A DNA stretch of 64,000 nucleotides from Symbiodinium sp. CCMP2592 (Eukaryota > Sar > Dinophyceae > Suessiales > Symbiodiniaceae): the NCBI GenBank assembly GCA_905221615.1, contig CAJNDT010000142.1, positions 62,001-126,000 of the forward strand. The letters are read 5' to 3'. Below the pieces are notes generated by a model. The model saw nothing but the letters and a program-made list of their open reading frames with translations. It was not told where the DNA came from and ran no database searches. Below are positions 22,902-42,500 of the stretch, in pieces. The first letter of the stretch is position 1; every line of letters begins with the position of its first letter. The position numbers and the translations under genes are program-made.

Positions 22902-23259
22902 TTTGGTGGGTTTGCGCGGTTTTGGGCGGGTGTGGTTGTGCTCTCTTGGCGCTTTTGGTCATTTCAACATTTCGATTCTGGATGGGGAAAGGGCCCAAAA
23001 TGACACCGCAAGAATTGGGCCTGCGACCTCTCCCAAAACTACTTCCAAGGTGCGCAACCTTCTACAAAACTATCTGGGCATGGCCTAATGGGTAAGTGTC
23101 CGGCTCCAATGCCTTCTTGGCAAAGGTCGGGGGCTCAATCCCCAGGGGCGTCATTTGGGCCCTTTCCCCACCCGGAATCGAGATTTTGGGGTGGCCTGAA
23201 GCTTTGGGCTCTCTGGGGACTCTCTAGAGGGGACTGGGTGCACATCCGGCTTTCGTGGG
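22902..23259 (+). mobile_element. Satellite spacer 3 with head-to-head tRNA-like SINEs
   Basis: 358 bp, same organisation as spacers 1 and 2; tRNA-like core at 23073-23157. Confidence 0.6.
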
Positions 23260-23563
23260 GCAGGTTGCAGAGGTTGAACCAGCAGGTTGCAGAGGTTGAA
23301 GCAGCAGGTTGCAGAGGTTGAAGCAGCAGGTTGCAGAGGTTGAGCCAGCAGGTTGCAGAGGCTGAACCAGCAGGTTGCAGAGGTTGAAGCAGCAGGTTGC
23401 AGAGGTTGAAGCAGCAGGTTGCAGAGGTTGAAGCAGCAGGTTGCAGAGGTTTCAGAGGTTGAACCTGCAGGTTGCAGAGGTTGAAGCAGCAGGTTGCAGA
23501 GGTTGAACCTGCAGGTTGCAGAGGTTGAAGCAGCAGGTTGCAGAGGTTGAAGCTGCAGGTTGC
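23260..23563. repeat. 22-bp satellite, array 4
   Basis: About 14 units, ending at TTGCCACATG, where unrelated sequence begins. Confidence 0.95.
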
Positions 23564-25019: not shown

Positions 25020-25729
25020 TCAGTGTCAATGATTGAGCTGAACGAGTAGGTTTATTAATTGTGTTGCCAAAACAAAGCCATCTAGTGGCCCTCCTCTTCT
25101 TCATCCCATTCGTCCTTGGGCACTGGGGACTTTCACAAGGCAGAGTGCCAGAGAGTTCTCGGTGTGACTAAGGCAGAGTGCCACCAAACAGTGTGGCCTG
25201 TTCAGATTCATTTTTGTGTCGCTGTCACTAGGCAGAGTGCCGGAAAGGCAGAGTGCCAATGTGAAATCGCATTTCTTGGGGCGTTTGAATGTTGTCATTT
25301 TTGCGGTCCGTCTGATCTGGCACATTTCAGCTTGCCGTTTTGGAAAACAAAGACGATGCCTATGCATACAGTCATGTCGGCAGTAACTCGATGGATTAAT
25401 TACTGTGCCTGTGAATTGATTGGTTCAACTTTGGTTTCCTGTGACAGCCCCATAAAACCTTTCAGGTGCTGGCGTCCAAGGTGGTTGGCTACTATGGCAA
25501 GGCTGGAATGCATGATGCAAGTGATTGTGAGTTGTGGAAGCTGAAACGCTTGCTATCTGGCCGTTGATGGGAACATGCCACGTAGTGTGTACGGACTCTA
25601 GTGACTAGTGAGTGGATGCGCAAGAATTTCTTGACCTGGCCGCAATCAACATATGTGTGTTCAAGATCGAGTCCCTTAGTGCTGCAGTGGTGCTTCCAGG
25701 CAGAGTGCCAGAGACAGTCGCCGATAGCA
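25020..25729 (+). other. Intergenic stretch with five palindromes
   Basis: GGCAGAGTGCC at 25139, 25172, 25231, 25247 and 25699, with spacings (33, 59, 16) that are mostly not multiples of three. No ORF with coding character; the frame through 25116-25544 is made of palindrome translations (KAEC). Confidence 0.6.
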
Positions 25730-26164
25730 ATGGGAAAGTCGAGGAAGAGCGCTCGTGTGAGTGATCAGATGATGTTCCCAATGCCGGGGGCAATGAACCC
25801 AGCAATGGGAATGAACAACCCACTGGCCATGATGAACCCTTTCATGTTGCAACAGCAGCAACAGATGCAGCAGCTGCAACAGATGCAGCAAATGCAGCAG
25901 ATGCAGCAAATGCAGCAACAGCAGCAGATGGCTGCTGTGGGTGAATCAAGGCAGAGTGCCAACGACTCCTCCTCGTCGGAATCAGAAGACCAAGAAGTGA
26001 GGAGGATTCGTAAGGAAACCAAGAAGAACAGCGCAAGGCAAGCAGCAACGATCGGGATTGATCGGCTGGCAACGTCCACTACCGATGCAGATGCAATCCC
26101 GAGAAGCGCCACGACATTGCGTTCGATCCCTCTGGCTGCTTGTCAATCAACAGAGTATCCCTAA
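25730..26164 (+). CDS. ORF B1: Gln/Met-rich low-complexity protein
   Basis: 144 aa from ATG 25730 (MGKSRKSARVSDQMMFPMPG). The sequence runs a Met/Pro/Asn-rich segment, a long Gln-Met repeat (LLQQQQQMQQLQQMQQMQ-type, about residues 40-65), then Ser/Glu-rich and Lys/Arg-rich parts. A palindrome at 25950-25960 is read as RQSA. The composition suggests a disordered, possibly nucleic-acid-associated protein. It ends at TAA 26162, immediately before AGGTCAG; ORF B2 opens ~60 bp later at GAG|GTGAAG, so B1 and B2 may be exons of one gene, though the frame across that join is not resolved. Confidence 0.5.
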   Translation: MGKSRKSARVSDQMMFPMPGAMNPAMGMNNPLAMMNPFMLQQQQQMQQLQQMQQMQQMQQMQQQQQMAAVGESRQSANDSSSSESEDQEVRRIRKETKKNSARQAATIGIDRLATSTTDADAIPRSATTLRSIPLAACQSTEYP

Positions 26165-26224
26165 GGTCAGCAATGATCCCTGAACCCTCCCCCCCCAAAG
26201 CCTAGATAAGCCTTACTGACTGAG

Positions 26225-27847
26225 GTGAAGGTGAAAGCTCTGCTCGAGCGAGTTCATAGTGCATGGGATGCTGCGGTCACGGCTGACCTGCCACAACAAA
26301 CAGCGCTGCAACTGCTCTTCATATTGACCAATCTGAAGCCGACCGCAAAGGTCAGTGAACTCAGGGTCGATATGAAATACAGCTTGCTTGGTCAGCGATG
26401 TGCGAATGCCCATAAGCGTCAATCCGTCTGCGATAGCAGCAGTTGGAACCGCATAGCCAAACCGGTTCTGGGACTGGGGGTGAATATGCCTGAGCATTCT
26501 GTTGACAGGGTTGCCTTGGAGTGTGGATGGCAGTCCACATGGATGACCGAGGATGTCACGACCTATGCCAGGCGTAGAGCGAGAGCAAGGCATTCCACTG
26601 AGACGCAGGGACGTCTCAGTTTCAATCCGAGTCCTGCTCCAGCTGCCCCGCCAACGGTTCCGCCGTCGGAAGGCAGAGTGCCAGACGTGGTCCGTTCTGG
26701 TCCTTTGCCAACGACTGCTCCTAGTTCCAATACAAGCCAGGCTGTGGGTCGCAGCCCGGCTGGGGAACAAGGCAGAGTGCCGATTCAACAGCCGCCTGCC
26801 TCCCCTCATGCCGTTCCGGGTTCCAATGCAAGCCAGGCAACCGAAGGCAGCCAGGCTGCAAGAAGTGAACAAGACAGAGTGCCGAGGGTTGTGGAAGGCA
26901 GAGTGCCAGTTGATGGGAATGCTCCTGCCATGGATGACGATGGTCTAGCGCCGGCAGAGGCAGAGATCAGGCCCGATCAGGAGATCGTCATGCCTCCTGC
27001 AGAAGTGACCACTGCACCTCAAACAGTTGAGTTGCCAGAGCCAGACACCTCCACGAACAGTGACTCGACAGCCGGTGCTGACGTGAATGCCGTTGTGCCC
27101 TTTGCGACAACCAAGTCGAAAGCCAAAGCAAAAGCCAAGGGCAAGTCGAAAGCCAAGGCCAAGTCCAAGGCCAGGGCGACGGCACCAAACACAGAGTCGC
27201 AGGACGAGGTCGCAGTCGAGGTCGATGATGAGGTCATGGCCGAGGCCGGGGCCGAGGTCGAGGCCGGGGCCGAGGTCGAGGCCGAGGTAGAGGGCGAGGC
27301 CGACGACAGTGCCTTCTTTGAGGAGGAGGAGGAGGATGCTCCGAATGAGTCGAGCAGACCTGCGAACCGGTGGAACCAGGACCTCTGTGTCATTTGGCAT
27401 TCGGAGATGCACCCGGGCCAGGCAGGCTGGTTTCGTTTGCCTTTGGTTAATGAACCATTGATAGTGGTGCCTGTCCTGTTTGTACATTCCACTAAGCCTC
27501 AGAACAGTACCTCTCACATGACGTGTCTTTTTCTGTTGCTTCCCTGGAATGCAGGCATTGGAAGCGCTATCGTGTGGCCACCTCTTTCACAGCGAATGTA
27601 TCAATCGATACTGTGAGTCGACCGGGCGGAACAAGGCCACCGCTTGCCCTCTCAAGTGTGCGAGCTCAGCCTCTATGGCAAGGTTCTTTTGGGTCCGAGG
27701 GGGTCCACGGGAAGCAATGCCCCTGTTCCTGTCGAAGATGATGCTAATGATGTGGACGCAATCGTTCAGGAAATACAAGCTCAACTCGTTGACGACCGCA
27801 CTCGTGAAGAGGAAGCTCCTGAGGTCAACGACCCCGTGGTGGACTGA
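26225..27847 (+). CDS. ORF B2: RING-finger-like protein with a GC-AG intron
   Basis: Open from GTG 26225. The N-terminal ~140 residues are helical, then come a Pro/Ser-rich segment with palindrome-encoded GRVP repeats (26672, 26771, 26897), a KAKAK basic tract and a long Glu/Val/Ala acidic repeat (EAGAEVEAEVEGEAD). The end has a split RING: DLCVIWHSEM before and ALSCGHLFHSECINRYC...CPLKC after a putative intron 27422-27554 (GC...AG, 133 bp). Removing it joins CAG to GCA in frame. The second zinc ligand, expected Cys in CxxC, is Trp (TGG), so zinc binding may be impaired. After CPLKC the best coding frame (APVPVEDDANDVDAIVQEIQ, to 27847) is shifted by one base, implying another indel or splice. 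RING proteins are usually ubiquitin ligases; that role is inference. Confidence 0.55.
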
Positions 27848-28335
27848 TTGAGTCGACAAGGTGGCTCGGTAACAAGGCAGAGTGCCACAATAACTGGCTC
27901 ATGTGTATGTGTTGTCGGTGATGTGGCCTCGAGTCTTATTAATTTTGGAGGTGTGGCAATGCCATTGTCACATACATGTTTCTGAAGGCGGAGTGCCATG
28001 GGTTGTAACATGTGTTCCATGATCATTATGTATTGACATGATTGTGTTGCCTTGTGTTGCATTATGCCATCAGGAATGTATGTCTCTTTGTAATCCCAGG
28101 CGGTCTGTCGATTTCAAAAGGATACTGCAGATGCCTGTGGACAAATCCGCGCCAAAGGCAGGATCCAACCTGTCCTAGAACACCAGTTGGGAGGGACCCA
28201 ACAAAGGACCACGGAAGTCTGCAATGGGGTGCATCCGTGTTTAAAAAAACATATGGCCTTTGAAGGGACACCATCCCCATACCGCCCCACAGGCCCTGCA
28301 AAATCTTAGAAGACATTTGTGACACTTGTGGCATG
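27848..28335 (+). other. Intergenic, palindrome-bearing
   Basis: GGCAGAGTGCC at 27876 and a variant GGCGGAGTGCC near 27986. No coding signal. Confidence 0.5.
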
Positions 28336-28735
28336 CCCCGGAAAAATCTTATTGAATCTTATTGAATCTTATTTAATCTTATTGAATCTTATTGAATCTT
28401 ATTGAATCTTATTGAATCTTATTGGTCCATCATTTTTAAAAGGGACACGACTCCAGATCGCCCCAAAAAATCTTATTGAATCTTATTGAATCTTAGAAGA
28501 CATTTGTACAATTGTGGCCTACCCCGAAAAAATCTTATTGAATCTTATTGAATCTTATTGAATCTTATTGAATCTTGTTGAATCTTATTGAATCTTATTG
28601 AATCTTATTGAATCTTATTGAATCTTATCGGTTTTACAAGGGACACAGCCTCCAGCTCGCCCAAAAAATCTTATTGAATCTTAGAAGACATTTGCAGGAT
28701 TGTGGACTACCCGAAAAAATCTTATTGAATCTTAG
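28336..28735. repeat. 10-bp repeat AATCTTATTG
   Basis: Four clusters of tandem AATCTTATTG, separated by a degenerate ~70-bp block (GGGACAC..., CCCCAAAAA, AGAAGACATTTG...TGTGG). The arrangement is a higher-order repeat of about 100-170 bp. Confidence 0.9.
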
Positions 28736-29353
28736 TGTTCGGGCCATCACGTTTTGAAGGCACACCGACCCTGTACCAGACAATTGCACACATGTAGCAT
28801 CCCCTCCCAAAAGTCTTGTTGGAGCTTATTGAATCTTGGGAGCTAGTTATACAATATCGAATCCCATTGAATCGGCACAGTCCAGCTAACCCAACCAAAT
28901 CCCTACGAGTAGTAACACATCTTATGATTAAGCATAAACTAGGTGGCACTCTGCCTTGAAGTACCTTTAAACCATGGACCTCCTTAAAACCTAAAACCCT
29001 GAAGCGCTTTTAAACCCTAAACCGTTACTGTGTGTGGTAAGTTTACACATAGACCTAGGTATATGTATAACATACATGCATACATATAGATATATGTATG
29101 GATTATATGCATACACTTATTATTGGGCATACTGCTTTCGAACATTAAACTACATCATCTATTAATAGCACTCTGTCTTCAAATATGTGTTAATCTAATG
29201 ATCATGTGCATAAATGCTTGTGTCGTCCAGTGGAACCTATTGCATGTGGTATTGAAACGGACATGACAATCAACTTCTAGTACCTGTTCGTACTATCCAA
29301 CACATATAGTTGCTTGCAGCTTGTTGGATCAAAGATATTTAAAGTTAAGCACC
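28736..29353. other. Intergenic, AT-rich; one minus-strand palindrome
   Basis: GGCACTCTGCC (reverse orientation) at 28945-28955, some CCCTAAA units near 28985-29020, then ATACAT/ATATG repeats. A CACCATGG start context lies at the end for ORF C. Confidence 0.5.
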
Positions 29354-30363
29354 ATGGCACCGAAACCGAAGGCCAAACCGGCAGCAGCGGGGAGGATCGG
29401 CCGGGTGAGGACTCCGAAGCGACGGCCTCGTAGAGTGCCGCCAACCGGTGTGAATGGCATTGGTGAAGAAGGTGGTGGGGCGGAAGGCAGAGTGCCAGGG
29501 CCACAAATTGGTCCGCCGCCACCAACGCCTGTGAATCGGCCACCTTACCCACCTGGCCCAAGACCTCCCGCCCCTGCGCGACATGAGTTTGAGATTGCCC
29601 AAGCTGTGGCAGAAGCGTTGGACATTATGGAGACCCCGATCATGATCAACTTCGAGCCGGATGTGGTTACTGTTAGGGAGGGCCGCATTGTTCTGGTCAC
29701 CCTTGAGAACTTGACCCCTGAAGAGATGCAACGTCGGCAGTTGGGACGGCGAATTTGTGCCATGTGTTTCAATGCTCCAGACAACCCGCCGCCACCAATA
29801 GTGCCGCCAAGGCCGATGCCTGAAAATGGCTATCCTGGCCCTAACAATAATGCCAACAGTGGAGCTACTGAAGGCAGAGTGCCAGAAGGCAGAGTGCCGG
29901 AAGGCAGAGTGCCAGATGAGTTCGAAAGTGGAGTTCGTGGTCAAATTTTTTTCGTTTGGAATCTCGCCCGGATGCCTGGTTGACTGGGCCAGCTCGTGCC
30001 GAAGGTGAGATTCACGCCTCAGACTCAGATGTGATTGAGGAAGGTGTTCTAGATGTTCGTCTTGGTGAGCTTGGAGGGCGGGGTCGTTTGGGTATTGATT
30101 ATGGGCACATCTCAGAAGAAGACCCGGACTGGAGTCAGCGCGGCTCAGCGGATGATGGAGCCCCCTCAGATGTGGAGGAAGGTGAGGAGTCAGACAATGA
30201 GGAGATGGACGCACTGGACGAAGCTCAGTCGTCCCCAGACTCAAATCAGTATGATTCTGCAGGTGAAGGCAGAGGATTTCGCATTCGTGGTCGTCGATCG
30301 GGGTATATCTCCTCAGAACCACCCTCCGACTGTGAGCCACCTGAAGATTTCTGGTGGCCCTAA
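29354..30363 (+). CDS. ORF C: Pro-rich/acidic unknown protein, one frameshift
   Basis: ATG 29354 in ACCATGG context. The N-terminus is basic (MAPKPKAKPAAAGRIGRVRT), then Pro-rich, then a folded-looking segment (INFEPDVVTVREGRIVLVTL, MCFNAP), then three tandem 15-bp palindrome units at 29873-29913 read as EGRVPEGRVPEGRVP. At a T run (29946-29952) the frame shifts by one; the continuation (29956 to TAA at 30363) is strongly acidic (EEGEESDNEEMDALDEAQSS) and ends EDFWWP. One extra T would restore a ~336-aa frame, so this is a sequencing error or a recent indel. No family recognised. Confidence 0.55.
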
Positions 30364-30662
30364 GGTTGATGTCTTTCAATGACAGCTTGGAAACTTTACA
30401 GAAGGCAGAGTGCCAAGAATGCTTGTGTCTGCCACCTCGGTGGCCTCGGAATCGTCGAGGACGATGGATGGACTGCTGTGTGCGGTACCAGAAAAACGAG
30501 AATCGAGTGAGGGTCTGGCAGTGCTGTATTTGATTGCTTGAGCATGAAGTCATGGTCTGCAACAACTATGCCACATGTGAATTTCAACGAGTGATTGCAT
30601 CATGTCTGTCTCATCCTTGTGTTGTGATGGATCAATCGACTCACAAGTGTGTCAACTGCTGA
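30364..30662 (+). other. Intergenic before ORF D
   Basis: One palindrome at 30404-30414. The similarity to window position 1 begins at about 30508, so upstream sequence of the left copy lies outside the window. No promoter motif recognised. Confidence 0.5.
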
Positions 30663-31820
30663 ATGTGCTGGTTCACAATTACGTTGTTAATTCGAACACC
30701 CTTGAGGTTAAGGTGTTACACTTTCTTGCGGATAGGACAGAGTGCCATGCACAGTGCAATTCGGAGTGCCATGTCTGCAGCAGCAGATGACCCGGCTGAA
30801 ACAAGAAGAAGACTGTTAGCAGACATTCGGCGGCAGTTTGATGCAAACATCGCACTGGAGAAGAGATTCTTGGCCATTTCGAGAGGACAGGATGTTCTGC
30901 GCCTTTGCGAAGTTGACCCGTCGCTTCTGGAGTTCCATAATGAAGGTCCTTATGAAGTTCTGCCTGAGTGCAACTATGATGTGATTCTTGAAGCCAGTGG
31001 GTTTTCCTGGATGATATCAATCTGGCAACAAATGTTATCAGAAACTTTTCCCATCATGACTTCGTGGCCATGGAAGAAACAGATGAGATTCCTCATCAAC
31101 TTTTGTCATTGGAAGCGGAACATAAGGCAGAGTGCCAGGTTCCACTTCCTGGAGATCTTTGCAGGGCAGGGCAACCTCAGTCGGGAGATGCTCCGTGCTG
31201 GCTGGCAGGGGCTAGCCTTGGACATCAGGTACGGCACAGATCATGATATTCTTTCTGTGAGAGGACTTCGCCTGGCTGTCAATGCTGTGTGTCAAACACA
31301 CAAACACGGCCTGGTGTGGTTTGGAACTCCATGCTCTTCCTTCGTCCAACTCTGTAAATACAGTACTGGAAGGTCCATTTCCAATGACTGGATGGGAGAA
31401 CCTGAGCGATCGCTGGCATGCCAAGAAGGCAATCGTTTCATGTATGTGACGCTGCTGTTGACTTTGCTCGCGGCTTTGAATGACAACCGGTTTGTGATCG
31501 AGCAGCCTTGCTCCAGCATGCTGTTCGACATTCCACTCGTCGATCGTGTCATGGGCATGATCCAGGCTATGAAGGTCAAAACCTATGGTGGTGCCTTCGG
31601 CCAGCCCATCCTGAAACCGCTTCAACTGTGGAGCAACTGTCAGCACATCAATGGTATGCGGCGCAGCTATCCTTCCCATGTCAGAGGAAGTGCTGGTTGC
31701 GTTGATCGAGATGGTGAGAAGTTCACCGGTCGTCCTGAAGATCTTCAGGGGTCAGAGGAGTACACCCCGGAGTTCGGCAAGGCTGTGGCCTTTCATATGA
31801 TGAGGGATGTCCCAACATGA
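30663..31820 (+). CDS. ORF D (right copy): cytosine-C5-methyltransferase-like protein
   Basis: 385 aa, same architecture as the left copy: LEIFAGQGNLS, LDIRYG, GTPCSSF and VIEQP at the same residues. This copy has WFGTPCSSF where the left has GFGTPCSSF, and YGGAFGQP where the left has YGGACGQP, and looks the better preserved. The palindrome 31126-31136 is read as RQSA just before motif I. C5-methyltransferases captured by retroelements have been described in dinoflagellates, but no reverse transcriptase is visible in this element. An rRNA or tRNA methyltransferase-like role cannot be excluded. Confidence 0.74.
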   Translation: MCWFTITLLIRTPLRLRCYTFLRIGQSAMHSAIRSAMSAAADDPAETRRRLLADIRRQFDANIALEKRFLAISRGQDVLRLCEVDPSLLEFHNEGPYEVLPECNYDVILEASGFSWMISIWQQMLSETFPIMTSWPWKKQMRFLINFCHWKRNIRQSARFHFLEIFAGQGNLSREMLRAGWQGLALDIRYGTDHDILSVRGLRLAVNAVCQTHKHGLVWFGTPCSSFVQLCKYSTGRSISNDWMGEPERSLACQEGNRFMYVTLLLTLLAALNDNRFVIEQPCSSMLFDIPLVDRVMGMIQAMKVKTYGGAFGQPILKPLQLWSNCQHINGMRRSYPSHVRGSAGCVDRDGEKFTGRPEDLQGSEEYTPEFGKAVAFHMMRDVPT

Positions 31821-32354
31821 ATTGTAGCTGAAGGCAGAGTGCCAATAAGGCAGAGTGCCATAATTCTCTAGAGTTAAATGAGCTTGCTTCATCTTTCGAC
31901 ATTCTGTCTTGTTGGTATTCTGCTTTCCAATGTTGGGACTGGGTTGAGCCCTGGACCCCCTCCGGTCCCTCCATTAGGTGCCGATGAAAATCATCGCCGT
32001 CCGAGCTGGTGCAGCTGTGCAATGAAAATGTAGAGAGCTTCAGTCACTCCGTGATCAGATGTGTTTGTCGGTATTGTCTCAGTTCGTATGCTGCTGTCGT
32101 GCAGGTGGCAATGACCTGGCTGGTGTCTCGACCTCCAGGTGCAGGCATCGGTGGCCTGTGTTAATCATTCCATGTGGTTGTCAGTTCAGTGCCATCTGCG
32201 ATAGTTTCCTGTCTCAAGTTCGAGTGACATGATGTGGCTGCTGACATGTCATCCTGAGTCTTTGGGTTGATTTCTTAAGAATTCAATGTGTTGTGAACTG
32301 GGGCTTGTTACACAAGTGCAGGTGTGTGTCAGTATTTAGTAAGATTCAAGTACA
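31821..32354 (+). other. D-E spacer with two palindromes and a hairpin
   Basis: GGCAGAGTGCC at 31833 and 31849 (16 bp apart, not a multiple of three). Hairpin CGATG/CATCG at 31982-31996 covaries with the left copy (CGAGG/CCTCG). Confidence 0.5.
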
Positions 32355-33407
32355 GTGTTGCTTTGGAGGATTTCGGTGATGCTTCTGAAACTGTGGGTCA
32401 TGCTATTGCTCCGTGATGGGCAATTGCTTAACTTGGAAAATGATGCCAAACTGCCAGCGAGAGCAGCTTGGCTCTCACAGGGCGAACTGTGGTGGCGTCT
32501 GGACTTGTTTTTCGATGAGAGCAACAGGAACGGCTCAGAACGTCGACAGTACCACAAATGGTACAACTTCTTCAGTGATCTTCTCAGGAAGACCCCCTTG
32601 GCTGCGAACTGGGGGGCACATGTGCAAAGTCAAAAAGGCAGAGTGCCAAACCCTGATGCTGTGCAGGAGGATGTGGCATCTTCCACAGCCTTGGCCCGAT
32701 TCATGTTGCAAGCATCCTTCGACACAAGGACAGACGCCCACAGGTAATGGTACAAGAGCAAACTGAAGGATGCTATGGTACGTGTGTGTGAAACTATCAG
32801 TGATGAGCCTCTGGTCATGCAGTTGGATGAAGGCAGAGTGTCATGGTTTCTTCAATCAGCTGGGTTGGTGTCAGGCGTTGCCGCTTGGATGATGAAGTCG
32901 CTGGCAGGCAACACGTCCCGATCTTTGCGGCAGCTTTGGGAATCTATGTTCAATGCAAGGACGCTGTCTTCATCTCTCCGAGATGAATCTGAAGGCAGAG
33001 TGCCACGAGATTGGGAGGAGGTGGAAACTAGCATCTACGACATCATCGCCTTTGCAACCATGGCAAAAAAACACAGAGCGCTTCAACCGTCGGGGCAGGC
33101 TCATGGATTTGCCAAGACAGTGGTGAATGCCTTCATGCACATACATGAGTGTCTGTCCGAGACATTGTCAGCCGGCCTCCAGGTGTATGTCATTGGGCAC
33201 TACTTGAGTGTACATGATGCTGGTGTGCCTGTGACGTCTCGCAGGGCACTTCTGGGCAAGCGTGTTCCATTGAAAGAGACTGTGGACATCAAAAGCATCT
33301 GGAAGTTGCTAGAGGGCGCTGCAAAAAGTGGGACCTCTTTGCGACAAGCCCTCATTCTCAAGAACCAGGACGAACGCAGCGACCTGCATGGTTCCTTGGT
33401 GAGTTGA
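32355..33407 (+). pseudogene. ORF E (right copy): unknown protein with one nonsense codon
   Basis: Same protein as at 1870. Here AGG is followed by TAA (32745-32747), where the left copy has GAA, and the frame then continues without shift to TGA at 33407. Palindromes at 32637 and 32994 and a variant near 32832 are read GRVP/GRVS. A candidate exon end is CATG|GTTCC near 33387: joined to CAG|GTGTG at 36571 it would continue in frame into ORF F (LHG-VPESSC), which would make E and F one gene with a 3.2-kb intron. This is a hypothesis only. Confidence 0.58.
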
Positions 33408-33413
33408 TATGGA

Positions 33414-33470
33414 GTAGAATGTTGTTTTGTTAACCAGTTGTTTAAGATTAGTGAATTCTTTGTCACACAT
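33414..33470 (+). repeat. 54-bp cassette (copy before module A)
   Basis: Begins TAGAATGTTGTTTTGTTA and ends GTGAATTCTTTGTCACAC. The left-copy counterpart is at 2931-2985. Present once before each of two module groups. Confidence 0.7.
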
Positions 33471-34667
33471 TCATTTGATGCCACGTACCCGCGCCACAGT
33501 CGAACTAAATTCGACTACCGCTTTTGCCATGGCCGACCCGACGTTCGGCTCTTGCGCCAAGCTGTTGGCCAAGTCCAGCAGAAGGTAATGTCGGGGGCAG
33601 AAGTATCCGCTGCGAACTCTGGGATGGCACCACGACGACCACGACGTCCTGCTTCTTTGCGAGCAGAGGGCGACATAGCATAGCGCGGGCAAATGCTTGC
33701 AGCTGCTAGTGGTCGTTGAGAGCCTTCGCCTGATATCCCCATGGCAGAGCGGGGTGACCCCATATCTCGGCCGAATGGGGGTGGCCTAAGTCTCCGGTAC
33801 GCATGACTGTCAGAGCACGTTCGTCTTTGCAAAGACGCCGGGGAGGCCGTTACAGAAAGGGATGCTTAAGTCAGGTTGTGCATTTAATATTTATGAAAGG
33901 CAGAGTGCCAGTAAAACTTCTAAGGGTTCAGGGTTTAGTGGTTTGCTGCGCTTGCTGTTGATCAGAAAATCCTTGTCGATTCGCTTGCAGGCATGTGGAG
34001 GCATGTGTGTGGCCGCTACCCAGGACTCGCTGTGTCTCGCACAGGGCTCTGAGGGAAGAACGTAGTGCAGGGCAACTTATAGTCGCACACCATTAGCCGG
34101 GGCCACTTCCCTGAGGGTTCGCTAGTGCAGGGCAGCTTGTAGTTCACACCGTTAGCCGGGTGTGGCGGGCCGCTGTTTGGGATTTTCGGGCTCTTGAGGC
34201 CAACGGGGATCTGCTGACAACGTGCCTGCTGGGAGCCCCCCATTTATGTCTCTGCACGCTCTGGCTAGCCAGTAGTCAGTGCGAGATGATGACCCACTCG
34301 GTGGCAGCAGGGGAGGCTCTTGAACTGTTGATCGACCAAGTGCGCAACATGGAAGGCCGAATCGAGTGAGTAGTCATTAAGTGTCAGGTTGTGATCAAAT
34401 TTATGAAAGGCAGAGTGCCAAAGGCAGAGTGCCAGTAAAACTTCTAATGGTTTTTTAGTAGGGTTTAGTGGTTTGCTGTGCTTGCTTTTGATCATAAACG
34501 TCCTTGTCGATTCGCTTGCCCGACCTAAACCTGAGCAGCGGGCTGGCCGAGGGGGCCCTAGAGACATGCCAGGTTCCATCTTGTTGGCCGTGTTGGGGGC
34601 AGCGATCCATCCGGAGCTGAAAGCTTGGCCACTGACGCCTGCGTGGCCTCGTGGCGGCCACCCTTGG

Positions 34668-34729
34668 GGCCAACTCCCCTACAGCCCGAGGGGTATGACA
34701 GCAGGGCGATGCGCTAATGCGCCTGCTGG
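34668..34729 (+). ncRNA. Structured RNA motif, copy 2 (right)
   Basis: Counterpart of 4216-4277 with identical stems: CCCCT/AGGGG and CAGCAGG/CCTGCTG. Confidence 0.5.
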
Positions 34730-35435
34730 GGGTGGCTTAAATGGGGGGCCGGTGCGTCCGTACCCCCCCGGTGAGATCCTAAAAGGGAGGCCGCTTGAGT
34801 TGTGTTGTAAAGAGAAGGGTGGGATAGTGCCTTCTTCAGTTCTTGCCTGTGCTCACTTTTGCGCGCAAGTGGCCCTGGGATCAGGTCTATCGTTGATCGT
34901 TTGGCATGGCCTGTAACTGTAGTGGCAGCATAGCATCCTGCTGTAAGTTACCACTACCCCAGCCGCCAGCTGGGCCTTGAGCCTGCTACTCACGGTGGTG
35001 ATGTTAGCCTGTGCCTGGTTTGTTTCTATCGGCGCGTTGCGGGCGATGTTTACGCCGAAGCAAACCAAGTCTCCGGGATCTGTTACATCGCAGGTGTGCC
35101 AAATGGCCTGCTGAGCAACAGCTGCGACGGGATCCGGCACAGCGCTGTCATCTTAATTCATTCCCTGTGAGCATGGCGACCCACCTTGGTCGAGTGGGGT
35201 GGATTTCAGCAAATGGGGGAGGCCGCTAACCCATGATTAGGCTATATCTCTTTCTGCTGAGCACATGCTTTCTGTTCTCTTGGATCGACGACAGAGGCAG
35301 AGTGCCGAGGCAGAGTGCCAGTCGAACCTCTTCGGTGTTGCCTTACCTAAGGAGTAAACACCTGCCCCACCAGGGTTGCTCCCCACACCATTGGCCATGT
35401 GTGAGGCGTTCGGTTTGCCTGTGTCACAGCCTTGA

Positions 35436-35500
35436 GGCCAACCTATCCCAGGGGCAGGGGATAGATGACAGCCGGGCACATGGGCTAATGCGCCGGCTGG
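35436..35500 (+). ncRNA. Structured RNA motif, copy 3 (right)
   Basis: Counterpart of 4977-5041. Stem 1 is fully Watson-Crick here (CTATCCC/GGGATAG), where the left copy has a G-T pair; stem 2 is CAGCCGG/CCGGCTG. Confidence 0.52.
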
Positions 35501-35626
35501 GGCCTGACCTGGTGACATCGAAGCAGTCATGCAAGTCACCGGAAGCAATACCGGACAAAGAAGGGAGGCCGTTCTTGGGACATGGCTGTGTTGTTGAGCT
35601 GGTGTGTTCCTCCGTCTCATTCATAG

Positions 35627-35683
35627 TAGAATGTTGTTTTGTTAGCCAGTTGTTTAAGATTATAGTGAATTCTTTGTCACACC
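35627..35683 (+). repeat. 54-bp cassette (second copy)
   Basis: Same cassette as 33414 with a TA insertion (GATTATAGTG); left-copy counterpart 5168-5223. Confidence 0.7.
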
Positions 35684-35739
35684 AACCTTACCAACAAGTC
35701 GCGGTGTGTCCAGTTTTGATTCACCAGCCGCGCTTGCAT

Positions 35740-35945
35740 GCCGATGGCCGGGCATGGGGTCGCTTTGGGGGACCATGGAAGGAAGACGGAACCGAGGACT
35801 TGTGACCTCTGCCAGGGCCATCTGCGCAACGCCCTCAGGGACTGAGGGTCGTCGCGCCGATGGCGTTGGCAGAGGCCTGTGGCCAACCACCAGAGCGGAC
35901 ACCTGGTGATGACAGCCAGACACATGGGCTAACGTGCTGGCTGGG
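35740..35945 (+). ncRNA. Structured RNA motif, copy 4
   Basis: Upstream hairpin ATGCC-GATGGCC-GGGCAT at about 35740-35757, then GGCCAAC (35881-35887), stem 1 CACCAG/CTGGTG (35888-35893/35903-35908), ATGA (35909-35912), stem 2 CAGCCAG/CTGGCTG (35913-35919/35937-35943) around CAC...GGGCTAAC GTG. Confidence 0.52.
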
Positions 35946-36274
35946 TCCGAGCTCGGCACCCGAGTGTCCCCCTTTGCAACATGGGAGGCCAAATATCGAG
36001 CAGAAGTACAGTAATTAGAGTGTCAGTCGAACCTCCTCAAGGTTGCCTTACCTAGCTGGATTTTCTGCGACCTCGGATCGTGTTGTCCGGGCCAGACTTC
36101 CAGGTTCCGAACAAAGAAGGGAGGCCGTCCGTTCTTGGGACATGGTTGTCTTATTGAGCAGAGAACCTTGCTCGGCTTGCTGTTCGGTTGTGTTTGTCAC
36201 GAGTGCCAACATGTTCAGAATGGGGTTTGGTGTATGTTGCTCTACCAAGCGGCAGCTGCATGCCCGCCAATTTT

Positions 36275-36416
36275 GGCAGCTACCGACACACTGTTGGCCG
36301 GGTGTGGAGCGAGGGCAAGGGCACTGGGGTCCCGCAGTCTAGGGGGGGGTTGGGGCCAACGGCCAGCGGGCATCTGGCTATGACATCTGGACACATGCGC
36401 TAACGTGCCAGGTGGC
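36275..36416 (+). ncRNA. Structured RNA motif, copy 5
   Basis: Upstream hairpin ACACT-GTTGGCC-GGGTGT near 36288-36305, GGCCAAC (36354-36360), stem 1 GGCCAG/CTGGCT (one G-T pair), ATGA (36380-36383), stem 2 CATCTGG/CCAGGTG (36384-36390/36408-36414; one T-G pair) with loop CAC-ATGCGCTAAC-GTG. Confidence 0.52.
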
Positions 36417-36573
36417 CCCTCCCGAAAATGACGTAGCCTCGGTGACCCAAGCTCTTCCATGGGAGGCCGAAGAATGGTGTTGCTTGCGCATAGTGTTGAA
36501 GTCCAAGTTGTACTTTTGTATCTCAACGATTGCAGCGAACGAATCGATCGCTCTTTGACTTGCCAGCTCAGGT

Positions 36574-39447
36574 GTGCCTGAGTCCAGCTGTGACGAGTGG
36601 CAGCTTCGAATCAATCGGTTGTACCAGGAGAGAGCTATCACTGCTATGCAGCACTGTCGACAAATCAACTTCATCGCCGATGGGTCTACTCACAGCACCA
36701 GCGATTGTCTTGTGACAGTGGCTTGGGCGAATGAGATTTCTGCTGCAGTGTTTGCACCCATGCAAGTGATGAAGACTGGACAAGTTTCTCCACAAGACCG
36801 GTTTGACGACGACCTGCTTCTTCACATATCAAAGCGAAAGAAGCTGGAAAGGATTGCTGCATTCAGGCAGCTTCAAGCGATCAGTCACCAAATCTGGATT
36901 TTGCACAGAGGGCGAATGGATTTGGGCTCTTTCAAGATCGCCCCCTCTCTTGGGCAGAGGCCTGTGAAAAGATATGAAAGCAGGGTGGTTTTCCAAGTTG
37001 GAAAAGAAGACAATGACATTGACCGCTGTTTTCAGTGGTTGAGGGACAATCCGGATCCGGCTGAAGGCAGAGTGCCAGAAGGCAGAGTGCCAGAAGGCAG
37101 AGTGCCACCAGCTTTTCCTCATGTCTCCTTTCTGAAGACAATGTCTGAGGATGGAGAGATCACAAATGTGCTCCCCGTCTTGCCAGAGTCAGAGAAGTGG
37201 TGGCTGAACATTCCACTGCTGGTCTTGGGCCTTGACCAGGGCAGCATCGGACTTGCTGGCATGGCCTATGCTATGCGTGAAAACATGATTCATGTGAAAT
37301 GTGACAAGATTCACAGGGCCATTCGAGATTTCAAAAACAGCATGTCGAGATGCCTCAAAGGACTCTTCCTGAAAGCACAACTTCACTCCTCTTACATCTT
37401 TGCCCTGAATTATAAACCCTTTGGAAGTGGTGGTTTCTACCAGCAGAAGAAGGAAATGCTGGCGAGTTTTGTTTCCTGCACATCACCGAGCAGAAGCTTG
37501 TTGTGGGACGCTTTTCGAGATAAGATTGCCTATGACTTAGACAGGCAGCTATCCGGTGACGAGCATGAGATTGAACATATGCTTGCAAATGTCGAATCCT
37601 TCATGAAGAAGGGCAGCTTGGTGAAATCCTCCAGATGGTTCAGCTGGAACCAGCTATGTTGTGAGCAACTTCATGAGTTTCATGTCCTCAAAATGCTGCT
37701 GGCTGATCATTTCGGTGAAGATCAATCTTTCAGCCCTTGCTCAAGGGAAAGACTCAGCCTGTATTCCAACTCGGCGAATACACAATCGGGCAAGGAGCTC
37801 TTCGAAGGCAGAGTGCCAGAGTCCGAAGGCAGAGTGCCGGACTCTGACAATGGTGAGAGGCAGGAAGATGCACTGGGTGATTTGCAAAAGCTGTCACAGG
37901 CTGGTCGTGCCACTGATCCACGGAAAGAACTCAGCTTGTTGAAAGCCAGCATGGGGGGCTTCAAGTTGGCATACTATCTCATGACAGAAGACCTTTTCGA
38001 TCACTCCAAGATATTGTACAAAGTGACCGAACCGTTGTGGACATGGTATGGGAAACAAGTAAAAAACGTTAAATCGCCGCAGGATGGTCGAGGTTATGCC
38101 GAGTTGATGACAGTGAATGATGCCTGGAAAGCAGACAAACATTTGTTGCAGATTGTCTCCAACCTGCAGAAGACCGAGTTGTGGAAGGAGCATCTGGATA
38201 CTGATTTACACGAGCCCGCAGAAAAAATCATGATGTTGAGCTTGCATTTGCTGATGAACAGGGTCTGGACTTGCAGTCTTTTTTCACTTCCACCAGATGC
38301 CTATGCGGGATTGCTGTCACCTGATGCAGAAATTCGGACGATCACGGCTTTGAAGGCAAAGGGCCATCACACATCACTCTTGAGGTTGGAGTCGACATTG
38401 GCACGGTCCACTCCAAGTGTTCATGCCCGGCAACTCTTCACAGACCTGCAAGTTGGAATCAGCCATCCTTCGAGACTTTTTCTGGACACATTGGAGGCAC
38501 AGGGATATGAAGTGGCGCCTCCGGGGTCAGAAGACATTGTCGTGGATGATGTTGACACAGAGCAGGACGGGGAGATGGAGGATTCTGTGCCTGAAGAAGC
38601 AGATGACGGTGCCGGAGTTGGTGACATTTTGTTAGACGGGCAAGAGGGCAGAGTGCCAGCTCAAAGGACTGTAACAATATCGGTACCAGCATGCCCTGCA
38701 ACCCACCTGCTGAGTGTTCTGGTGCAGACGCTGCCAGACAACAAGATTGTGGAAGATGTGCACAACAAGATTCGTAATGATTCTTTGTTGAACAAAACCC
38801 GCAAGCAAACATACTCCACGATTCAAACTGTGATCGAGAATTCAAACGTCTTTGAAAGCCGTTCAATCAGGCATCCGGCAAAAGTCAAACGGGAATATTT
38901 TGAAAGGGAGTTTTGGAATGTGGACAGGAAGCGCCAAAAGTTGTGCTTCAGAGGATGTGTCCACAAGCTGCCGTCACAGTATACCGAGATTGTCGGCGAC
39001 AAGACATGGAACACCCTGTCAGAAGAGACACTCGAACGAGCATCAGCTGCGTGGTCATGGCTAATTCACTACAATGATGCAAGACTGGCATCTCAGCATG
39101 TTCCCTTGCGTGCTGGGAAGTTTAGCAGCCTTGCAGCCCCTTTGAAGATCTTGAACCATGTCTTGGATTTGACATGCTATCTCTCTCTTGGGGCAAAAAC
39201 CTGGGCTGCTCTCATGTGGCCAGTGGTCCAGCATGAGGACCAGTCGACAGGAGAGATATATTTTGTTTTGAAGGCAGAGTGCCCGGATGGTTCCAGCGTC
39301 AAGGCCTGCTGGATTCATTTGTATGAGCCCCAGTATTGGGAAGTCATCGAAACAGAGGCAGTCTTCTGGAATGGCTTCATTTGCCTCCGTCGTTGTGCTA
39401 CAAGCTCAGTGTCACTTCTATCCTATATGTTGCAGCATCCCAAGTGA
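36574..39447 (+). CDS. ORF F: 957-aa protein, possible DDE/RNase-H-fold transposase-like
   Basis: The largest ORF, open from 36559 and labelled from GTG 36574. A clean acceptor-like CAG at 36571 suggests that the true N-terminus is upstream and spliced. Seen: INFIADGSTHS (residues 31-41), LVLGLDQGSIGLAGMAY (216-232) and HVKCDKIHRAIRDFKNSM (240-257), a D...CDxxH pattern reminiscent of the second catalytic Asp and the C/DxxH motif of MULE-type transposases. The third acidic residue is not assignable. Six palindromes are read as GRVP (37066, 37081, 37096, 37807, 37828, 38647) and one as KAEC (39273). The acidic segment EDIVVDDVDTEQDGEMEDSV lies around 38530-38600. The function is inferred from motif shape only. 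Confidence 0.6.
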   Translation: MPESSCDEWQLRINRLYQERAITAMQHCRQINFIADGSTHSTSDCLVTVAWANEISAAVFAPMQVMKTGQVSPQDRFDDDLLLHISKRKKLERIAAFRQLQAISHQIWILHRGRMDLGSFKIAPSLGQRPVKRYESRVVFQVGKEDNDIDRCFQWLRDNPDPAEGRVPEGRVPEGRVPPAFPHVSFLKTMSEDGEITNVLPVLPESEKWWLNIPLLVLGLDQGSIGLAGMAYAMRENMIHVKCDKIHRAIRDFKNSMSRCLKGLFLKAQLHSSYIFALNYKPFGSGGFYQQKKEMLASFVSCTSPSRSLLWDAFRDKIAYDLDRQLSGDEHEIEHMLANVESFMKKGSLVKSSRWFSWNQLCCEQLHEFHVLKMLLADHFGEDQSFSPCSRERLSLYSNSANTQSGKELFEGRVPESEGRVPDSDNGERQEDALGDLQKLSQAGRATDPRKELSLLKASMGGFKLAYYLMTEDLFDHSKILYKVTEPLWTWYGKQVKNVKSPQDGRGYAELMTVNDAWKADKHLLQIVSNLQKTELWKEHLDTDLHEPAEKIMMLSLHLLMNRVWTCSLFSLPPDAYAGLLSPDAEIRTITALKAKGHHTSLLRLESTLARSTPSVHARQLFTDLQVGISHPSRLFLDTLEAQGYEVAPPGSEDIVVDDVDTEQDGEMEDSVPEEADDGAGVGDILLDGQEGRVPAQRTVTISVPACPATHLLSVLVQTLPDNKIVEDVHNKIRNDSLLNKTRKQTYSTIQTVIENSNVFESRSIRHPAKVKREYFEREFWNVDRKRQKLCFRGCVHKLPSQYTEIVGDKTWNTLSEETLERASAAWSWLIHYNDARLASQHVPLRAGKFSSLAAPLKILNHVLDLTCYLSLGAKTWAALMWPVVQHEDQSTGEIYFVLKAECPDGSSVKACWIHLYEPQYWEVIETEAVFWNGFICLRRCATSSVSLLSYMLQHPK

Positions 39448-39553
39448 CATGTTTTCATTTAGGATTCTGTCAACTGTCGACCCATACAGTAAATAGTACA
39501 ATAAACTTATATAAGTTTTGCTGTGCTTGTTTTTGCTGACTCGACTGAGGGAA

Positions 39554-40741
39554 ATGTCACAAGCATGTCGGACTCTCGCAGACTGCCAGAATCTCGCCGA
39601 GCATGTGATCTCCCAGACTGGAAACGTAGACGAAAAAAAGCGAAAGGAGCTGCAACGAATGCGCCGTCCAAAGCTCATGAGCCTGATCGCTTCTCATCAC
39701 CTTCCGGAAGATGAGGATTTCATGCGCAAAATTGAGGCTATGTATTCGACAGCCAAAGATTCAACAGAGGATGAGGATGAGGATGACATTATCATGGGGG
39801 ACTTTGTTGATGAGCTGGTTCTTGACGACCTGCTTGCTGAGGACAAACAGGAATTTAAAATGGTCTCAGACGCAGTCAGAAAACGCAGAATCAAAAGGGT
39901 GCATCAAACCTGGCAGGCCATCAAGACGCAGCAAGCAAAGGCCAAGGCAAAGGGCAAGGCCAAAGCAAAGACCAAAGCAAAGGCCAAGCCACAGGCCAAA
40001 CGGAAAGCCAAGAGAAAGATTTGTCGCCCACGTATGTTGCCCAGGAAGCAACCCGCGCCTCCTGATGAAAGTGGTCAAGAGGGAGCAGAAGGCAGAGTGC
40101 CAGCACCTCCTGCTGAGGTGCCGGTGGAGCCGGAGCCTGATAATCACGTGGAGGCCGCGGAAGGCAGAGTGCCAGCCCCTCCTGCTGAGATGCCGGAGGT
40201 GCCTGCTGCAATCCCTGTCCCAGAGCCTGATGATCACGTGGAGCCCGAGGAAGGCAGAGTGCCAGCCCCTCCTGCTGAGATGCCGGAGGTGCCTGCAGTG
40301 CCTATCCCAGCACTCGAGCCACGGGAGGTTGCAGTCCGTGGCCCCCAACATCAGCGGCGGCCGAACCGTGTTGACTACCAAGGGGTATGGACACCTGTTC
40401 AATGCCCGGAGTGTCCCAAGATCGCTGGTGAGATGAAGTACGACCCGAATCCTGGTGGCACTGACAAAGCAAAATGGTTTCTCCGAGTTCGTGTGACAGA
40501 CGGCGGTCTCTTGGAAAGATTCGGAACATTTGTTATAGCTTCGATGTGGTTGCCTGATCTGCTGTGTGTTGTGTCACATTACATGAACCCATGTGTGTCT
40601 GGCATTGAAGGCGAGTGGAGCCACCTCGTACCCTATCACTGGGGACGTGTGGCTTCCAAGATGACAGAAGCGCAGGCCAGACAACACGTCATTGACCATA
40701 GGCCCTGTTGTGGCCCGACCAGGAGGCCTGGCAACAACTAG
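39554..40741 (+). CDS. ORF G: basic/proline-rich unknown protein
   Basis: 395 aa from ATG 39554 (MSQACRTLADCQNLAEHVIS). The N-terminal helical region is followed by an acidic patch (DSTEDEDEDD), a KAKAKGKAKAKTKAKAK basic tract that could act in nuclear targeting or nucleic-acid binding, then three ~24-30-residue repeats, each beginning with a palindrome-encoded EGRVPAPPAE (40091, 40163, 40253; spacings 72 and 90 bp). The C-terminal domain contains CPECPKIAGEMKYD and HRPCCGP, possibly metal-binding. It starts 106 bp after ORF F. Confidence 0.62.
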   Translation: MSQACRTLADCQNLAEHVISQTGNVDEKKRKELQRMRRPKLMSLIASHHLPEDEDFMRKIEAMYSTAKDSTEDEDEDDIIMGDFVDELVLDDLLAEDKQEFKMVSDAVRKRRIKRVHQTWQAIKTQQAKAKAKGKAKAKTKAKAKPQAKRKAKRKICRPRMLPRKQPAPPDESGQEGAEGRVPAPPAEVPVEPEPDNHVEAAEGRVPAPPAEMPEVPAAIPVPEPDDHVEPEEGRVPAPPAEMPEVPAVPIPALEPREVAVRGPQHQRRPNRVDYQGVWTPVQCPECPKIAGEMKYDPNPGGTDKAKWFLRVRVTDGGLLERFGTFVIASMWLPDLLCVVSHYMNPCVSGIEGEWSHLVPYHWGRVASKMTEAQARQHVIDHRPCCGPTRRPGNN

Positions 40742-40823
40742 AGGATTCATCCTGCGCTGCAAAGAAAAGTTGTGTGTCTGTCTGTGTGCTTGCATTGATG
40801 GCAGCGGGTCCTGCTAGATTGGA

Positions 40824-41009
40824 ATGCGTCCGAGAGACTGTGTGTTTCTGCTTGGGGAAGACGGATTGCGAAAGCATGTTCGCATTTTCACACATGTGGA
40901 ATTTGTCACGTGCAAGCACATGGACAATCATTTCGAGTGCCACAACCCGGAAGCCGCACAAACTAGCACATGTGGTTTGAAGCCGTGCGTGCTTGTGACT
41001 GAACAGTAG
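40824..41009 (+). CDS. Small ORF, Cys/His-rich
   Basis: 61 aa with EFVTCKHMDNHFECHNPEAA, a CxxH...CxH arrangement suggestive of a small zinc site or an exon. It ends 12 bp before ORF H and could be spliced to it. Confidence 0.28.
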   Translation: MRPRDCVFLLGEDGLRKHVRIFTHVEFVTCKHMDNHFECHNPEAAQTSTCGLKPCVLVTEQ

Positions 41010-41021
41010 CCGTCCAGAGCA

Positions 41022-41507
41022 ATGCATTTCGCCCCGATCGAACGAGGAGAGTGTTTCTTCAGAGGCGAGCTCTCCCCAATCTTGATCAAAACCGCTTGCG
41101 AAAAATTGGCCAAAGCGCCTGACCAGTGGAAACCAGCTGAGAGATGGAATGAAGTTTATGACGACGTGCCTTGGGAAATCATGGTTCGCTACCTGCGTTA
41201 CTGGCCACGTATTGGCTCCCGCATTACAGGAGGCCTCAGGCTTCTTCGACGGTACCAAGGCCCCTTCCCGAAGTGTTATCAGGTGGGTGAAGGAGAAGAA
41301 CCGCTGGAGTTGCCGCGCGTTTCTCTCGTTTGTGATTTTGTTTATGTTTGGAACGACGAAGATGAACAACAACGGCAGTTTGTCCTTCAGATGAAACACC
41401 TCTCACTTGTTGCCATCCGTCTCGGTGGTCCGGGGGAACTTCCTGACCTTGATGCTGGAGCAATACCTTTGACCGACCAGCTGAGTGCAAAGTTGGGGTG
41501 GCAATAA
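41022..41507 (+). CDS. ORF H: unknown 161-aa protein
   Basis: ATG 41022 (MHFAPIERGECFFRGELSPI). Balanced, soluble-looking composition (PWEIMVRYLRYWPRIGSRIT, RVSLVCDFVYVWNDEDEQQR), no low complexity and no palindrome inside. No family recognised. It is the last ORF of the cluster. Confidence 0.52.
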   Translation: MHFAPIERGECFFRGELSPILIKTACEKLAKAPDQWKPAERWNEVYDDVPWEIMVRYLRYWPRIGSRITGGLRLLRRYQGPFPKCYQVGEGEEPLELPRVSLVCDFVYVWNDEDEQQRQFVLQMKHLSLVAIRLGGPGELPDLDAGAIPLTDQLSAKLGWQ

Positions 41508-41700
41508 TTAATGGATCTTGAGGCGGGAAGGCAGAGTGCCAGCAGCTGGGAAGGCAGAGTGCCAGACGTTGTCGCGTCACCCAGCTGTACCCTGCTTCGC
41601 CTGCACGTGATTCGCTTGACAGTGTGGTCAACGCAGAAAAGCGCAACATCCAGCAGTTCGTAGCCACTTCACGCGATTTGTGCATCCCTAATACTATCAA
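41508..41700 (+). other. 3' flank of ORF H with two palindromes
   Basis: GGCAGAGTGCC at 41529 and 41553, the last plus-strand copies. All later copies are reversed, in the following minisatellite. Confidence 0.6.
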
Positions 41701-42500
41701 ACCCTAAAACTATGGCACTCTGCCTTCTAGCCCCAAACCCTAAATACTAAAGACCCTGAAACTCTAACCCTAACCCTTTCATTACCCTCAAACCCTAACA
41801 CTATGGCACTCTGCCTCTAACCCCAAACCCTAAATATACTAAAGACCCTGAAACTCTAACCCTAACCCTTTCATTACCCTCAAACCCCTAATACTATGGC
41901 ACTCTGCCTTCTAACCCCAAACCCTAAATATACTAAAGACCCTGAAACTCTAACCCTAACCCTTTCATTACCCTCAAACCCTAACACTATGGCACTCTGC
42001 CTGCTAACCCCAAACCCTAAATACTAAAGACCCTGAAACTCTAACCCTAACCCTTTCATTACCCTCAAACCCCTAATACTATGGCACTCTGCCTTCTAAC
42101 CCCAAACCCTAAATATACTAAAGACCCTGAAACTCTAACCCTAACCCTTTCATTACCCTCAAACCCCTAATACTATGGCACTCTGCCTTCTAACCCCAAA
42201 CCCTAAATATAATAAAGACCCTGAAACTCTAACCCTAACCCTTTCATTACCCTCAAACCCCTAATACTATGGCACTCTGCCTTCTAACCCCAAACCCTAA
42301 ATATAATAAAGACCCTGAAACTCTAACCCTAACCCTTTCATTACCCTCAAACCCCTAATACTATGGCACTCTGCCTTCTAACCCCAAACCCTAAATATAA
42401 TAAAGACCCTGAAACTCTAACCCTAACCCTTTCATTACCCTCAAACCCCTAATACTATGGCACTCTGCCTTCTAACCCCAAACCCTAAAGACCCTGAAAC
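41701..42500 (-). repeat. 91-94-bp minisatellite combining palindrome and telomere-type repeats
   Basis: Nine GGCACTCTGCC occurrences at 41714, 41805, 41898, 41991, 42083, 42177, 42271, 42365 and 42459. Each lies in a unit with CCCCAAACCCTAAA and CTCTAACCCTAACCC. Later units are more uniform (94 bp) than earlier ones (91-93). Confidence 0.95.

Follow-up and report, generated by a model that had tools for sequence, protein, structure and literature searches.

A predicted structured RNA family carried by repeats in the genome of Symbiodinium sp. CCMP2592

The 64-kb stretch of Symbiodinium sp. CCMP2592 DNA analyzed here (C142:62001-126000, hereafter the window) contains a two-hairpin motif whose stems change letters from copy to copy while each arm keeps its own complement. 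A preliminary description of the window took this pattern to reflect selection on RNA structure. The questions raised by the locus are whether the pattern extends to copies elsewhere in the genome, what the complete fold and the unit around it look like, and what such an RNA might do.

Copies of the motif in the window

All five copies named in the preliminary description (3715, 4216, 4977, 35881, and 36354) were found where it had placed them, and two of them recur, as it had claimed, in the other copy of the surrounding element (34668 and 35436). The window therefore holds seven intact copies, five of them distinct and all on the + strand (Table 1), each with the layout GGCCAAC, hairpin 1, ATGA, and hairpin 2, with GCTAA within the hairpin 2 loop. 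The other element copy contains a third, broken copy at 34198; compared with 3715, it has lost by deletion everything from the 3' arm of hairpin 1 through ATGA and the 5' arm of hairpin 2 to most of the hairpin 2 loop. Model scores in the window are 77.7 to 86.4 bits for the seven intact copies (by construction), 13.2 for the broken copy, and 10.4 for the next match.

Table 1. Positions of the motif copies, associated hairpins, and neighboring features in the window (P0, closing helix; hp0, upstream hairpin)
Feature	Position	Strand	Details
Copy 3715	3705-3786	+	P0 GGGCTC 3705-3710 / GAGCCC 3781-3786; TTGA+GGCCAAC; hairpin 1 3722-3744; ATGA; hairpin 2 3749-3779
Copy 4216	4202-4287	+	P0 7/8 pairs; hairpin 1 4223-4242; hairpin 2 4247-4276
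Copy 4977	4963-5051	+	P0 GTCACAGCC/GGCTGTGAC (4964-4972 / 5042-5050); hairpin 1 4984-5005; hairpin 2 5010-5040
Copy 34668	34654-34739	+	sister of 4216
Copy 35436	35422-35510	+	sister of 4977
Copy 35881	35881-35944	+	GGCCAAC; hairpin 1 35888-35908; ATGA; hairpin 2 35913-35943; P0 weak, 3 pairs (read from alignment row L073)
Copy 36354	36340-36425	+	P0 arms 36340-36349 / 36416-36425 (from alignment row L064); TTGG+GGCCAAC 36350-36360; hairpin 1 36361-36379; ATGA 36380-36383; hairpin 2 36384-36414
Broken copy 34198	34194-34238	+	13.2 bits; middle deleted relative to 3715
Upstream hairpin hp0	36287-36306	+	CACACT-GTTGGCCG-GGTGTG
Further hp0 hairpins	3662-3681, 4925-4944, 34145-34164, 35384-35403	+	
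hp0 with CATGCC/GGCATG arms	35737-35756	+	
Unit 3' motif GGGAGGCC	36461-36468	+	
GG[GA]AGGCC elsewhere (3300-5300 and 33300-36600 searched)	3358, 3899, 4333, 4758, 5105, 33841, 34351, 34785, 35217, 35563, 35983, 36119	+	
Apparent intron with second array	33401-36568	+	inferred from uninterrupted homologues
Upstream ORF	32748-33407	+	taken as host-gene exon
962-aa ORF	36559-39447	+	taken as downstream exon; no Pfam match
Neighboring gene of the repeat	30663-31820	+	model weakly like C5-cytosine DNA methyltransferases

The reported complementarity of the stems was borne out. Among the five distinct copies, 29 of 30 hairpin 1 pairs and 35 of 35 hairpin 2 pairs form, the best of 20,000 letter shuffles reaching 27 for hairpin 2. 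The hairpin 1 letters are mostly unrelated from copy to copy, and arms crossed between different copies form a mean of 2.3 of 6 pairs; the summed hairpin 1 stem length is 33, against 26 in the best shuffle. Hairpin 1 of 35436 has U-A in place of the U-G of its sister 4977. An alignment of 6 distinct rows (A3) gave a covariation score of 0.478, compared with 0.135 when shuffled and at most 0.283 when slid. Since the folding energies of single copies are mostly unremarkable (z from −2.7 to −0.4 on the + strand), the case for structure rests on the comparison between copies. A stable long hairpin lies directly upstream of the 35881 copy, at 35806-35875 (z −6.66 for 73 nt from 35800, 40 shuffles). 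Two elements had been missed in the preliminary description: a helix that closes the core (P0) and a hairpin upstream of it (hp0), the latter not found in the window for copies 4216 and 34668.

The three-way junction across genomic copies

The assembly searched comprises 1,098,105,373 bases in 5383 contigs. The pattern ATGACA-N6..14-ATGNGCTAA has 2591 matches (1370+1221), compared with 17 (8+9) for its reversed control, and GGGCTAA-N1..4-GC-N0..2-GCTGG has 598+504 matches compared with 13+13; the matches listed include near-identical copies of larger repeats as well as tandem duplicates, and counts of repeats are lower bounds. Loci were drawn from about 100 of the 1102 and of the 2591 matches, an overlapping and non-random sample, to give 80 partly overlapping loci, 60 from the listing and 20 regions picked mostly as unusual. 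Among the 208 hits in these loci and the window there are 74 distinct contexts and 49 distinct cores. Two cores were dropped as chance (window 61387 and L132), leaving 47, and removal of near-duplicates left 35 representatives. Exclusion of L124:1997-2080, which reads GGGGAAC, gave the main alignment (A6) of 34 representative cores in 33 distinct rows. A further alignment of full units (A5) has 21 rows chosen by hand.

The core fold that emerges is a three-way junction, 5'-P0-UUGRGGCCAAC-hairpin 1-AUGA-hairpin 2-G-P0'-3', with AUGNGCUAA as the hairpin 2 loop. In A6, for a structure derived partly from the same sequences and against shuffles that leave shared ancestry in place, 89.0% of 788 cells are paired (62.6% shuffled), 208 of the 788 have changed on both sides with pairing kept (72.4 shuffled, sd 6.5), and the covariation score is 0.667 (0.191 shuffled, at most 0.152 slid). 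Two weaker measures on the same alignment give smaller differences: 20 pairs carry a double change compared with 17.7 shuffled, a value reached by 22 of 500 shuffles, and there are 67 further pair types compared with 58.6, reached by 3 of 500. RNAalifold, run on A6 with no structure supplied, returned the same three helices and junction, with kept double changes in 16 of 21 pairs. In its structure the inner pairs of hairpin 2 fall at columns 56-71 and 57-70, with one G left unpaired; columns 56-71 hold 16 A-U, 10 G-C, and 8 G-U pairs, with none broken.

P0 is the weakest of the helices, with 78.5% of its A6 cells paired, mostly failing in the outer four pairs, compared with 97.5% for hairpin 1 and 96.0% for hairpin 2. 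Taking the best of 12 shifts, P0 has at least 5 pairs in 29 of the 35 representatives and fewer in 6, and in 32 of 35 it shares a common register, ending at UUGR and resuming one nucleotide past hairpin 2. The fraction of positions pairing is 0.94 within copies and 0.51 across copies for hairpin 1, and 0.95 and 0.79 for hairpin 2; the corresponding values for hp0 (0.94 and 0.67) and P0 (0.96 and 0.48) are biased upward because their arms were chosen for pairing. Compensation can also be seen between close relatives with matching flanks, as in GGCCAG/CTGGCT versus GGTCGG/CCGACC and, for P0, GGGCTC/GAGCCC versus GAGCTC/GAGCTC.

The RNAalifold table for A6, leaving aside the near-constant U11·G81 pair, contains 50 G·U cells and 9 A·C cells, 20 of the 50 coming from two columns and the fold itself accepting G·U. 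Judged by this excess, the strand given here seems to be the one that folds. Against the RNAalifold structure, about 20 of the 28 invariant columns in A6 are unpaired; the letters that stay fixed belong for the most part to the single strands and to the loop of hairpin 2, and the helices keep their complementarity. For GCTAA, ATGA, and GGCCAAC the invariance is partly an effect of sampling, because the copy finder required GCTAA, near-ATGA, and near-GGCCAAC. Fixed unpaired letters with drifting helices would be the look of a folded RNA in which the loops either make up an active site or are recognized by a partner.

The preliminary description had staked its reading in part on covariation over many genomic copies, and in the sample this is what was found. 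Its proposal of selection on RNA structure is thus supported beyond the window by the 33-row covariation and by the fold obtained with no supplied structure. The covariation over many diverged copies expected of a functional structured RNA is, at the level of sequence comparison, supported here.

The larger unit and its genomic setting

Features flanking the core recur with it. An upstream hairpin with at least 5 of 6 pairs and an eight-base loop like GTTGGCCG is present in 30 of 35 representatives (0.7% of 1620 letter-shuffled stretches), GG[GA]AGGC lies within 260 nt downstream in 32 of 35 (3.5% shuffled), and YYTACC lies upstream in 29 of 35 (16% shuffled); the three occur together, YYUACC 5' and GG[GA]AGGC 3', in 25 of 35. 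By eye, many units in A5 also have two further hairpins, one immediately 3' of YYTACC and one, with a GGAATC-like loop, ahead of GGGAGGCC. Many alignments between representatives span only the core, from about −10 to +70 relative to GGCCAAC, and several alignments across subtypes start near −100 and end somewhere from +60 to +140, while members of the same subtype align over 250 to 900 bases or more. In L114 (1778-1816), what looks by eye like a minimal unit has just the upstream hairpin followed immediately by GGGGAGGC, without the junction core.

The hp0 loop, typically GUUGGCCG, is able to pair with GGCCAAC: loop GUUGGCC is its reverse complement, and 4 to 7 of the 7 positions pair in the 30 hairpin-bearing representatives. 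On the five window copies this pairing is weakly above chance (P 0.02 and 0.046), and because GGCCAAC hardly varies it comes without covariation. A pseudoknot between the hp0 loop and GGCCAAC is thus offered as a suggestion from sequence.

A second copy of the block at 1-5348, 97-98% identical to it, occupies 30508-35806. Six homologous proteins (P0008, P0009, P0011, P0013, P0019, and P0020) and contig L057 are, by eye, uninterrupted at the point matching the second array; the proteins may be spliced gene models, while L057 is DNA. Since the homologues are uninterrupted there, the array is most simply an intron of ~3.2 kb, with candidate donors GTGAGT at 33401 or GTTCC about 14 bases earlier and candidate acceptors CTCAG/GTGTGCC or CTGAG/TCC. 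The second array would then apparently fill, in transcript sense, an intron of a gene in a multi-gene repeat. It consists of about eight units, each ending in GG[GA]AGGCC: four with intact cores, one with the broken core, and three coreless (ending 33841, 35217, and 36119). At 35625-35682 the array contains a duplicate (95%) of the segment 33413-33468, which lies close to where the apparent intron begins at its 5' side. A protein search with a chance ORF that crosses the array gave no hit at E 1.

By its homologues the window looks non-prokaryotic: those of the 962-aa ORF include a record from Polarella glacialis, and those of the 385-aa ORF an EukProt record. The structure model of the 962-aa ORF is poor (mean pLDDT 48.5). 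The weak structural match of the ORF at 30663-31820 to C5-cytosine DNA methyltransferases has a best E of 3.3e-3, with none at 0.001 or below. Such enzymes usually have PCQ, and this ORF reads PCSS at that site. Nine window ORFs scanned, the methyltransferase-like one included, gave no Pfam family match, and no reverse transcriptase was seen among them. The short word GGCAGAGTGCC occurs 47 times on the + strand and 10 times on the − strand of the window, all within 1-5348 and 24000-42500, and inside ORFs it is read in frame as EGRVP or KAECQ (homologue consensus GxVPE). Forty-eight viral stretches each contain its 15-base form a single time, apparently by chance. The interval 19343-23563 is taken up by a long array of 22-base tandem repeats with several open reverse frames.

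L057 (1-7769), a contig assigned to a Methyloceanibacter MAG, codes for a relative of the element genes in the window and so looks like dinoflagellate contamination. By eye it has its own dispersed hairpin of the type GCCCTTGC...GCAGGGC. No convincing motif was found in its 7.8 kb, which say little about its species (best E 0.056 and 0.1).

Of the 80 loci, 32 carry ORFs of the element found in the window and 48 lack them within their 2.5-8 kb. The motif is found in 44 of these 48; the model matches nothing in the other four (L063, L083, L120, and L132), where the pattern seems to have hit by chance. Of 11 loci checked for GGCAGAGTGCC, 10 likewise lack it. It is thus probable that the family extends beyond the element, with loci of a few kb liable to miss an element lying further away. 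Tandem copies are spaced about 260-760 bp apart. L109 and L114 have no more than about 390 bp in common, set between flanks that differ, which suggests spread as a unit, and no target duplication was evident by eye in this pair; other groups share 3 kb (L061/L062/L077/L133, L075/L076, and L122/L123), so those subtypes travel with larger repeats.

Known families and possible roles

The preliminary description could match the motif to no known ribozyme, riboswitch, or snoRNA, and this stands: in the window, none of the 4227 Rfam 15 families scores as high as its gathering score. When the two arrays and six genomic loci were searched permissively, all matches were far below family thresholds. On the + strand, mir-2237 touches the motif at 36346-36389 (16.3 of 70 bits, E 6.4); on the opposite strand are asR3 (E 0.49 and 3.1) and SNORA5 (E 0.92 and 6.7); and the six further loci gave eight miRNA-model matches away from the motif. 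Resemblances to hammerhead, HDV, twister, SRP, and tRNA-type promoters were considered informally and not adopted. Motif patterns in viral contigs picked out 8 and 29 stretches, none a true copy (best model hits among the 29, E 0.073 and 0.093), and protein-led viral searches found no relative. Among the PMC papers that literature searches listed, no title or abstract describes this RNA, which is weak evidence of absence, subscription papers being mostly outside that scope. From its sequence we rate the family as a candidate new RNA class, meaning by this that none of the tested families fits it.

Several known systems share features with it. The RHE/DHE of mitochondrial DNA are, in passages of PMC2800124, likewise short dispersed hairpin-forming repeats with some tandem hairpins, and in sponges they have conserved stems and varying loops. 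Here the pattern is the opposite, with loops and junction strands fixed and stems varying; there is a third closing helix, and the setting is a 1.1-Gb assembly. An RHE of the sponge type was rejected on the pattern of stems and loops. Dinoflagellate introners, as passages of PMC7789003 and the review PMC11453091 (citing Roy et al. 2023) describe them, are repeats that each make an intron, with repeats at the splice sites, and the family resembles them in placing repeated structured sequences in dinoflagellate introns (PMC7789003). The window array instead has about eight units, with four intact cores and one broken, inside one apparent intron, and in this array a repeat that supplies or abuts the splice sites of one intron was not what was found. 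The DNMT-bearing retrotransposons of Symbiodinium, described in part of PMC5890265 as high-copy repeats with a methyltransferase ORF, are similar in being repeated in high copy, in the methyltransferase-like ORF, and in their dinoflagellate host, but the nine window ORFs scanned lack any Pfam match or reverse transcriptase.

What was computed for the module is a covarying fold, high copy number, tandem clustering, and one array in an apparent intron. The reading that we prefer, at about even odds (a probability near 0.5), is that of a repeat-borne structured RNA module of about 240 nt with the three-way junction at its heart, acting within transcripts and recognized by a trans factor for processing or mobilization. 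The module would be transcribed inside introns or long transcripts and fold there, and its fixed loops would be where a partner makes contact, either a protein or an RNA, supplied by the cell or by a mobile element. This partner would process or mobilize the RNA. The stems would merely hold the loops in place and so could drift freely, and duplication would multiply the copies, in part along with larger repeats and perhaps in part as roughly 140-400 bp units. An array in transcript sense within an apparent intron, tandem units, and a broken copy among them fit a redundant module acting within transcripts.

The alternative that survives best, though we consider it unlikely, is a new self-cleaving or self-splicing ribozyme whose tandem units would let multi-unit transcripts be cut into monomers. 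Hammerhead and HDV-like ribozymes occur in some retroelements and do just this, and the present family resembles them in having a small fold tied to repeats and arranged in tandem (spacing about 260-760 bp), a small junction with drifting stems and 28 invariant columns, about 20 of them unpaired, and a link in the window to a repeated multi-gene block. It differs in lacking an Rfam match to the hammerhead or HDV-like families; no Rfam ribozyme family appears even at E 10 for the window arrays, the sequence names no cleavage site, and cutting a host-gene intron that holds four intact cores is not obviously useful. We are similarly doubtful of a new catalytic or trans-acting class, a ~240-nt and perhaps pseudoknotted junction RNA that would cut or prime its own mobilization, present in thousands of copies with its arrays carried by multi-gene elements.

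A host non-coding RNA gene family of snRNA-like or snoRNA-like character, multiplied and sometimes intron-hosted, seems less probable still. Intronic and dispersed copies with conserved single-stranded letters would suit it, as would the 4 of 47 distinct cores in which RTGATGA, matching the box C consensus RUGAUGA, precedes hairpin 2. A gene family under strong function would not, however, be expected to have thousands of copies and many subtypes. GATGA occurs in only 17 of the 47 cores, and a box C layout was rejected on these counts. As for box D, which is CUGA next to a terminal stem, 11 of 35 representatives have CTGA in the 60 nt that follow, counted regardless of its position relative to a stem. 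The sub-threshold snoRNA and small-RNA matches in the arrays are, moreover, on the other strand or at E 0.8 and above.

We hold it quite improbable that the units are an intron-borne splicing aid, with a CUAAN loop serving as branch site and the units keeping a long intron spliceable or regulating the element's gene. The hairpin 2 loop does show CUAAN, often CUAAY, which the branch-site consensus resembles; GCUAA is invariant in A6, though it was also used for finding copies; and the window array lies in an apparent intron on the gene's strand. The base following GCUAA is nevertheless A in 12 of 47 cores. In addition, 48 of the 80 overlapping loci have no element ORF within 2.5-8 kb and 44 of them bear the motif, so the present sample does not establish the intron setting as general. 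Finally, a DNA-level palindrome family that signals recombination or replication, or neutral duplication in which template switching repairs the stems, is very improbable even in a repeat dense in the palindrome-like GGCAGAGTGCC, because a double-stranded cruciform would not favor G·U on one strand (50 versus 9 cells, 20 of the 50 from two columns and the fold accepting G·U) and drift would not spare unpaired letters.

It is unusual for one genome to contain thousands of copies of a structured RNA family that matches nothing in the RNA family library. For dinoflagellate genomics the family is a concrete target for probing transcription, cleavage, and protein binding, and the covariance model can be applied to other dinoflagellate genomes to date and place the family.
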